Part shown: one piece after another, positions 15,924-16,973 of the stretch
How the letters are laid out: each line of letters opens with the position of its first letter
Numbering within the stretch: the first letter of the stretch is position 1
Source of the DNA: Planomonospora sp. ID82291
GTDB taxonomy: Bacteria > Actinomycetota > Actinomycetes > Streptosporangiales > Streptosporangiaceae
Reading direction: 5' to 3'
DNA: 64,000 nt
Assembly (NCBI RefSeq): GCF_015711645.1
Contig: NZ_JABTEX010000001.1
Location: 2,046,001-2,110,000, forward strand
The notes under the pieces: model-generated
What the model was told of the DNA's origin: nothing
Seen by the model: the letters and a program-made list of their open reading frames with translations, nothing else
The model's database searches: none
Position numbers and translations under genes: made by a program

Positions 15924-16247
15924 TCAGTGGCCGCCGCCCGCCAGGTTGAGGCCGATGACGCCGCAGAGGATGAGGGCGATCGAGGCGATCTTGAGGAGGG
16001 ACGCGTCCTCGCCCAGTGCGATCATGCCCAGCGCGGCGGTGCCGACGGCGCCGATGCCCGTCCAGACGGCGTAGGCCGTGCCGACGTCGAGGCTCTTGAG
16101 AGCGAAGGCGAGCAGGCCGAAGCTGAGGACGGCGGAGACGGCGAAGCCGATGCTCGGCAGCGGTGCGGAGAACCCGTCGCTGAGCTTGAGCGAATAGGCC
16201 ATGGCGACCTCGAACAGGCCGGCGACGACGATCATGATCCAGGCCAT
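15924..16247 (-). CDS. gdx: SMR-family exporter, probable guanidinium exporter (Gdx/SugE-like)
   Basis: A 107-residue small multidrug resistance protein with four membrane helices and the essential Glu13 in AGLFEVAMAYS. YAVWTGIGAVGTAALG is the third-helix signature. A guanidine-III riboswitch in the leader argues for guanidinium export rather than quaternary-ammonium drugs. Residue 16 is Met where well-studied Gdx proteins have Trp, so substrate range could differ. A single SMR gene is present, fitting a dual-topology homodimer. GGGAG precedes the ATG. Confidence 0.9.
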   Translation of the reverse strand: MAWIMIVVAGLFEVAMAYSLKLSDGFSAPLPSIGFAVSAVLSFGLLAFALKSLDVGTAYAVWTGIGAVGTAALGMIALGEDASLLKIASIALILCGVIGLNLAGGGH

Positions 16248-16269
16248 GACGGCTCCCTTCGGTGCAGGA

Positions 16270-16309
16270 GCGTCGTCTTCGCAGGCCGGGTACGGCGCGT
16301 CTCGTCCGG
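16270..16309 (-). ncRNA. guanidine-III (ykkC-III) riboswitch
   Basis: Minus-strand RNA 22 bases upstream of the SMR start. It opens CCGGACGAG, continues CGCGCCGTACCCGG and ends AAGACGACGC, the same order and spacing as the known Thermobifida fusca guanidine-III riboswitch. The 3' element can pair with the GCGCCGT loop as a pseudoknot with one A-C mismatch. Ligand binding should expose the downstream GGGAG ribosome site. Identified from memory of the published RNA; no covariance search was run. Confidence 0.85.
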
Positions 16310-16418
16310 GCGGCCCCGGAAGCGGGCCCGCAGCGGTGACAACGGCGGTGGTCTCCAGAGGATTCCCACCCCGGCAGGATGGCCGCAGGCGACGGCGAGA
16401 TCGAGGCAGGGCCTCGCC

Positions 16419-16973
16419 TCAGTAGAGATCGGCCAGTGTCACCAGGACGACGTCGCCGCGACGCCGGGCCTCGGCCTCCAGGTCGGCGGTGAAGCCGTTC
16501 CTGGCGAAGATCACCAGCTTGGCGTCCTCCGCCGGAACGCGCTTGGCGGTGATGACCGCCCGGAGGTGGTCCAGCCGGTGCAGGTCGGCGCTGCCGCGGG
16601 GCTCTGCGGTGTACTTCGCCTCGCCCAGCACACTCACCGCCGGACCCTTCGACCGGGCCTGCTCTCCCGGACCCAGCATGATCACATCGATCTGGTGGCT
16701 CTTCCGGCACTCGGGGCATGAGATCGTCGTCTCCCCGACCTCGCCGCCGCCGTCCAGGCCGAGCCGCTCCACGCCGTAGACCCCGGTCCAGCGGCGGCAG
16801 ACCTCCTCGAAAGCCGGTCCGAGGATCTTGGACTGGACCGTGTCCCGTGCGGCGGCCCAGACCGCCTCCGCGTTTCCCAGTTCGGCGTCGTGGACGCGCG
16901 GCTGCACCACCAGGTGGTGGAACCGGAGCAGGGGGTCGCTCAGGCGGTAGGAGATCTTGCGCTGGTAGAGCAC
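16419..16973 (-). pseudogene. 5'-truncated DUF234-type ATPase, C-terminal domain only
   Basis: The reading frame encodes the C-terminal part of an ATP-binding protein with a DUF234 domain: LYQRKISYRLSDPLLRFHHLVVQPR, then a VWAAARDTVQSKILGPAFEEVCRRW segment, a CPEC zinc-type pair, and an EAKYTAE nuclease-like strand. Intact family members carry about 250 more residues with a P-loop NTPase domain upstream. In this frame, in-family sequence continues only to LIAKEEDV before an unrelated stretch and a stop at about 17027. A GTG after AAGGAGGAGGAC could still start a 184-residue protein, so expression is possible. Called decayed, not intact. Confidence 0.7.

Follow-up and report, generated by a model that had tools for sequence, protein, structure and literature searches.

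A guanidine-III riboswitch with a recurrent C·A mismatch in front of a Gdx-like SMR exporter of a Met16 clade

Introduction

In the genome of Planomonospora sp. ID82291, a putative guanidine-III riboswitch precedes a gene for an SMR exporter that has Met at position 16, where Gdx proteins have Trp. This raises the question of whether RNA and protein still make up a guanidine export system and whether the deviating residue is a property of this one gene or of a larger group. In print, W16 of Gdx is termed universally conserved and K101 completely conserved, and positions 16, 17 and 39 are among the main features that separate Gdx from Qac proteins, which carry Gly/Ala16, Thr17 and Tyr39 (PMC9000954). 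In structural accounts, the position of the central glutamate is linked to a stack of hydrogen bonds in which W16 takes part, and in the available part of PMC7695847 a W16G substitution in Gdx-Clo reduces guanidinium exchange but does not abolish it. Guanidine-III RNAs, for their part, are described in the available parts of PMC5696562 and PMC12186494 as ON switches with a predicted translational mode of action, an action via mRNA stability having also been reported. Here we follow both partners through the window, i.e. the whole stretch of 64,000 nucleotides that was analysed, through 250 genomes of the window's bacterial family and through a sample of 396 genomes of the phylum, both sets including the window's own genome.

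The guanidine-III aptamer in front of the exporter gene

When the 64 kb window was searched with all Rfam families, the guanidine-III model (RF01763) matched at 16332-16267 on the minus strand with 53.3 bits (E 3.2e-8), against a gathering score of 36 bits; the Infernal search that the initial annotation had proposed as a check thus speaks for its assignment. A whole-genome search showed this to be the sole match above the cut-off in 7.6 Mb. A second one (C7:197870), of 29.3 bits, falls within an ORF of 643 aa and was put down to chance. No guanidine-I riboswitch was found elsewhere in the genome, and neither a sigma-70-like promoter nor a terminator was found around the exporter gene at the window locus.

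In the numbering of the Thermobifida fusca RNA (PMC5696562, in part), the aptamer core of 40 nt, equivalent to T. fusca nt 1-41, extends over 16270..16309 (minus strand, as for all elements named here). P1 joins 16309-16306 with 16289-16286, all four pairs being formed; C6/G7 (16304-16303) and the third strand G9 A10 C11 (16301-16299) follow, and P2 is made up of a 5' strand at 16298-16292 and a 3' strand at 16276-16270, with six of seven pairs and one C·A, which completes an H-type pseudoknot. The ligand-contacting bases C6 (16304), G7 (16303) and G17 (16293) are all kept. Comparison with T. fusca 5NWQ bears out that the leader has the order and spacing of the Thermobifida guanidine-III RNA, as had been stated from the letters alone. 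Equally, the distance of 22 bases to the ATG is exact on T. fusca boundaries (core 16309-16270), and it becomes 19 bases if the end of the Rfam match is taken instead. The span originally given, 15924-16309, does enclose core and gene and omits the hairpin that the Rfam model has upstream of the core (16310..16332 in the Rfam alignment, which marks its loop-closing pair as non-standard). An ORF of 184 aa upstream of the riboswitch (16419-16973, minus strand) is without Pfam or NCBIfam match.

The exporter and its pocket residues

The gene behind the aptamer (15924..16247, minus strand) encodes a protein of 107 aa that scores 90.5 bits with PF00893 (cut-off 23.7) and thereby falls into the SMR family. 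Its best NCBIfam model is SugE (NF008512), with 119.7 bits and thus below the cut-off of 126, the next model reaching 73.3 bits. The alignment to Gdx-Clo (6wk5) is gap-free; it confirms the earlier reading of a kept Glu13 together with Met at 16, and it shows all four central Gdx residues (E13, S42, Y59 and W62) to be present. Codon 16 (16200..16202) specifies Met for the Trp of Gdx-Clo and codon 101 (15945..15947) Asn for its Lys, and with M16, A17 and A39 the protein also lacks the Gly/Ala, Thr and Tyr of Qac proteins. Because W16 and K101 are both absent, we would place the protein outside Gdx proper, as an SMR protein of a Gdx-like clade with the signature M16/A17/A39/S42/Y59/W62/N101. N101 and A39 had gone unremarked in the initial annotation, as had a hairpin over the Shine-Dalgarno sequence. 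The only other PF00893 match of the genome (G000 C8:1442365-1442643, L004) has W16, Phe at 62 and Arg near 101, and its protein sits on a very long branch of the SMR tree.

Met16 marks a clade of guanidine-III-linked SMR proteins

Guanidine-III matches were found in 181 of the 250 family genomes, in 176 of them above the cut-off. All family counts given here refer to the 150 matches listed, beyond which weaker ones exist: 143 stand before an SMR gene, six before another gene, and one (L138) lacks the core as judged by pattern. The 143 SMR genes divide into 87 with Met16 (86 distinct proteins) and 56 with Trp16. Positions 16/17/39 read MAA (76), MAS (8) or MAG (3) in the Met16 set and WAL (51), WAM (4) or WVL (1) in the Trp16 set; residue 101 is Asn in 78, Arg in five, His in two and Lys in a single Met16 protein (L267), with one further protein cut short, as against Lys in 53, Arg in two and Asn in one of the Trp16 proteins. 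The rest of the pocket is constant in the Met16 set, with Y59 and W62 in 87 of 87 and S42 in 85. M16 is thus ordinary among its own relatives and marks a whole clade of guanidine-III-linked SMR proteins, and the M16/A17/A39 signature, mostly accompanied by N101, is neither that of Gdx (W16, K101) nor that of Qac. The 'atypical pocket residue' noted initially is therefore atypical with respect to Gdx as described in print (PMC9000954); it does not set this gene apart from its relatives, since 87 of 143 share it. A genome carrying both W16 and M16 copies (G444) was not used, its M16 copy being cut short at only 91 aa. In four loci of the same family (L296, L306, L310 and L311), guanidine-III precedes a gene for a small membrane protein, a candidate for a new guanidine-linked protein; the two of them that were scanned, those of L306 and L310, match the NCBIfam CBU_0592 family.

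A similar picture is obtained from the protein side. Among the 80 relatives of the window protein listed, the closest of which come from Streptosporangium (83%), nine have Met16, and guanidine-III above the cut-off stands before all nine; it was found before none of 55 with Phe16 (mostly Streptomyces, with Q101) and none of 16 with Trp16, seven of which have guanidine-II. A search for sub-threshold riboswitches before 11 of the 55 Phe16 relatives and four W16/N101 relatives, at E values up to 0.5, yielded none. A protein-first check in the 250 family genomes covered 20 loci whose riboswitch had not been seen, i.e. eight with Met16, ten with Phe16, one with Trp16 and one that was unparsed; guanidine-III was present at seven of the eight Met16 loci, L313 being the exception, at none of the ten Phe16 loci and not at the single Trp16 locus.

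Across the phylum, 51 of the 396 genomes gave a guanidine-III match. Outside the family, 49 loci were read, the two weakest matches being left out; 35 of these gave an SMR protein by our filter, all 35 with Trp16, and some of the 14 that the filter dropped are Trp16 SMR proteins by eye. Three guanidine-III-linked Trp16 SMR genes (L033, L039 and L042) carry Ala at 101 and thus represent a second lineage without K101. In L028 and L037 guanidine-III is followed by the gene for a protein of about 155 aa whose N-terminus resembles MELTFEAG, L010 beginning alike; a scan of the first 90 aa of the L028 product gave no match to any NCBIfam model.

Does the altered pocket mean an altered substrate? The M16 clade might have shifted to a substituted guanidine, e.g. 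methylguanidine, agmatine or a guanidinylated metabolite, with induction persisting via a tolerant RNA pocket. Two of the positions 16, 17 and 39 that separate Gdx from Qac are indeed changed, as is 101, and the aptamer of T. fusca accepts methyl-, amino- and ethylguanidine as well as agmatine. However, guanidine is the best ligand of this RNA (for both, PMC5696562, in part), the three contacting bases are unchanged in the window aptamer, and W16 exporters, mostly with K101, are found behind the same RNA class in the same family. We therefore regard such a shift as unlikely and guanidinium itself as the better candidate.

The Met16 clade in the tree of SMR proteins

Quick trees of about 107 columns were built from rows thinned at 80% identity, with many minus-strand PF00893 loci left out and, in the second tree, two long rows removed. 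The Met16 proteins form one branch, with SH-aLRT values of 87 in the first and 96 in the second tree. In the latter, 94 non-Qac rows are split with a support of 99.8 from ten Qac-like rows, which were picked by residue 16 (Ala, Gly or Thr) and are stand-ins, none being an experimentally tested Qac protein. The M16 clade thus appears to belong to the Gdx side of the tree, as far as these residue-chosen stand-ins represent the Qac side. This split bears on the reading that the exporter is a promiscuous drug exporter of the Qac type that has come under guanidine control. Such a reading could draw on the loss of W16, which Qac proteins share; it is at odds not only with the tree but also with the residues of the clade, which has M and A plus A, S or G at 16/17/39, and with the wide lead of SugE over any other NCBIfam model, and it seems very improbable to us.

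Mapped onto the tree, guanidine-III needs four changes, and an AU test does not reject a single guanidine-III clade (p 0.487). Separate recruitment of guanidine-III by several SMR lineages is thus one possible history, a single clade being another. Since the association of Met16 with the riboswitch rests on one clade, it would count as one evolutionary event and not as many.

A recurrent mismatch in P2

The single A-C mismatch that the initial annotation had seen in the pseudoknot could be assigned to C15 (16295) and A38 (16273), the latter in the 3' strand of P2. P2 of the T. fusca structure consists of nt 12-18 with 35-41, and the third-strand bases G9, G10 and U11 are each part of a triple, with C16-G37, C15-G38 and G14-C39, respectively (PMC5696562, in part). 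In the family, pair 15-38 is C·A in 81, C-G in five and U-A in one of the 87 Met16 leaders; the 56 Trp16 leaders, four of which (L143, L245, L277 and L262) were parsed by eye, have C-G in 45, U-A in seven, U-G in four and C·A in none. The remainder of P2 is nearly invariant in the C·A Met16 leaders, and beyond the family, C·A at 15-38 is likewise seen in the phylum before Trp16 exporters. The C15·A38 mismatch is a recurrent type, not a defect. A10 is not strictly coupled to A38: of the 81 C·A Met16 leaders, 68 have A10 and 13 have G10, which leaves an association only. Because the Rfam alignment of the window match does not flag the 15-38 pair as non-standard, the family model appears to accept C·A, and the variant is probably already inside the Rfam alignment; in the available parts of the guanidine-III literature, the consensus of Sherlock and Breaker 2017 aside, we found no mention of it.

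If C15·A38 instead marked an aptamer in decay, the gene would be effectively constitutive. A nearest-neighbour estimate for the P2 duplex, which ignores the triples and any protonated pair, gives -5.3 kcal/mol with C·A, -10.4 with U-A and -12.5 with C-G, i.e. a cost of 5-7 kcal/mol for the mismatch, and one close M16/N101 relative (L313 in G534, 79% identical) has no recognisable guanidine-III before its gene. Yet decay would scatter changes, and what is seen is the same C·A in nearly all M16 leaders within an otherwise almost constant P2, its reappearance with W16 exporters in other parts of the phylum and its apparent acceptance by the family model, all of which makes decay scarcely credible.

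A predicted hairpin over the Shine-Dalgarno sequence

The part of the window RNA that runs from G34 up to the start codon is predicted to form a single hairpin (16248..16277, minus strand) of -14.6 kcal/mol (z -3.57), with one of 200 shuffles folding as well. In this proposed OFF hairpin, the 3' strand of P2 and the bases following it pair with the Shine-Dalgarno sequence GGGAG (16253..16257), which lies in the 3' arm 5 nt before the ATG, and with the spacer. Because it uses the P2 3' strand, the hairpin and the pseudoknot should be mutually exclusive. That A38 is kept for pairing within this hairpin was considered and dropped, its pairing probability being 0.22 in the window and 0.44 on average in the 42 short-linker M16 leaders.

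The M16 leaders comprise these 42 with a short linker (39 distinct) and 45 with a long one. Over the nine pairs of the hairpin, 94% of the cells are canonical in the short-linker M16 leaders (34-50% when the partner is slid) as against 43% in short W16 leaders, and folding joins the P2 strand to the Shine-Dalgarno region by seven or more pairs in 40 of 42 short M16 leaders versus 11 of 27 short W16 leaders. In the 45 long-linker M16 leaders, most of which do not fold in this way, the share of canonical cells is 54% (26-44% when slid), so the hairpin is not general to the M16 clade. The pairing reflects mostly conservation and one-sided change rather than covariation, since P2 dictates the sequence of the 5' arm and the Shine-Dalgarno sequence dictates part of that of the 3' arm. 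Between aptamer and Shine-Dalgarno sequence, 29 of the 45 long-linker M16 leaders (e.g. L221 and L226) have the element CGUCUC or GUCUCGU, in examples complementary to GACGAG and AGACGAC stretches of the aptamer; this element is perhaps a second design of the expression platform.

Discussion

Overall, our data point to a translational guanidine-III ON switch that drives an exporter for guanidinium from a Gdx-like clade of its own, and we consider this reading, which draws on sequence comparison and predicted folding, to be likely. Its core, guanidine-III control of a Gdx-like exporter, had been proposed from the start and is now backed by the covariance model as well as by the linkage of RNA and gene across relatives. 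Without guanidine, the P2 3' strand would fold onto the Shine-Dalgarno sequence and hide it. Guanidine would stabilize the pseudoknot, thereby withdrawing the P2 3' strand and freeing the ribosome site, and the exporter made as a result would most likely pump guanidinium out of the cell. By weakening P2, the C15·A38 mismatch would probably make the switch ligand-dependent, i.e. it may let the hairpin win as long as guanidine is absent. On the protein side, since Met replaces W16 (mostly together with Ala39 and Asn101), the clade would have to hold its substrate without the W16 hydrogen bond, E13, Y59, W62 and nearly always S42 being kept.

A more far-reaching idea is that the M16/A17/A39/N101 clade represents a distinct functional kind of SMR protein, which moves guanidinium or a substituted guanidine without the W16-E13 bond and K101 and is paired with a second guanidine-III subtype. 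In this subtype an A10·A38·C15 triple would stand in for G10·G38-C15, and the Shine-Dalgarno hairpin would set the threshold in many members. We put this forward as a tentative and rather doubtful proposal. What makes the system attractive is that a guanidine-controlled clade without W16 throughout, and without K101 almost throughout, constitutes a natural test of the residues held to separate guanidinium from drug specificity, and that, on the RNA side, an aptamer of solved structure is available here in a natural variant with a mismatch, together with a simple expression platform that lends itself to testing.

How does the locus compare with known systems? The Streptomyces-type F16/Q101 SMR genes have products that share about 54-62% identity with the window protein and differ by F16, no guanidine riboswitch having been found before those among the relatives listed. 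The actinobacterial W16 SMR genes behind guanidine-III share RNA class and bacterial family with the window locus but have W16/A17 with L39 or M39 and, in 53 of 56 cases, K101; their leaders carry C-G, U-A or U-G at 15-38, and a Shine-Dalgarno hairpin is less common in them than in M16 leaders. With Gdx/SugE, as represented by Gdx-Clo, the exporter shares the fold family, E13, A17, S42, Y59 and W62, control by a guanidine riboswitch and an alignment free of gaps, whereas W16, M39, P54 and K101 are replaced by M16, A39, D54 and N101. The T. fusca RNA (RF01763, 5NWQ), finally, is matched in order, spacing, C6/G7/G17 and position just before an SMR gene, but the window leader has C15·A38 in place of C15-G38, A10 C11 in place of G10 U11 in the third strand, a strand connecting P1 and P2 that is one base shorter, and a clear hairpin over the Shine-Dalgarno sequence.
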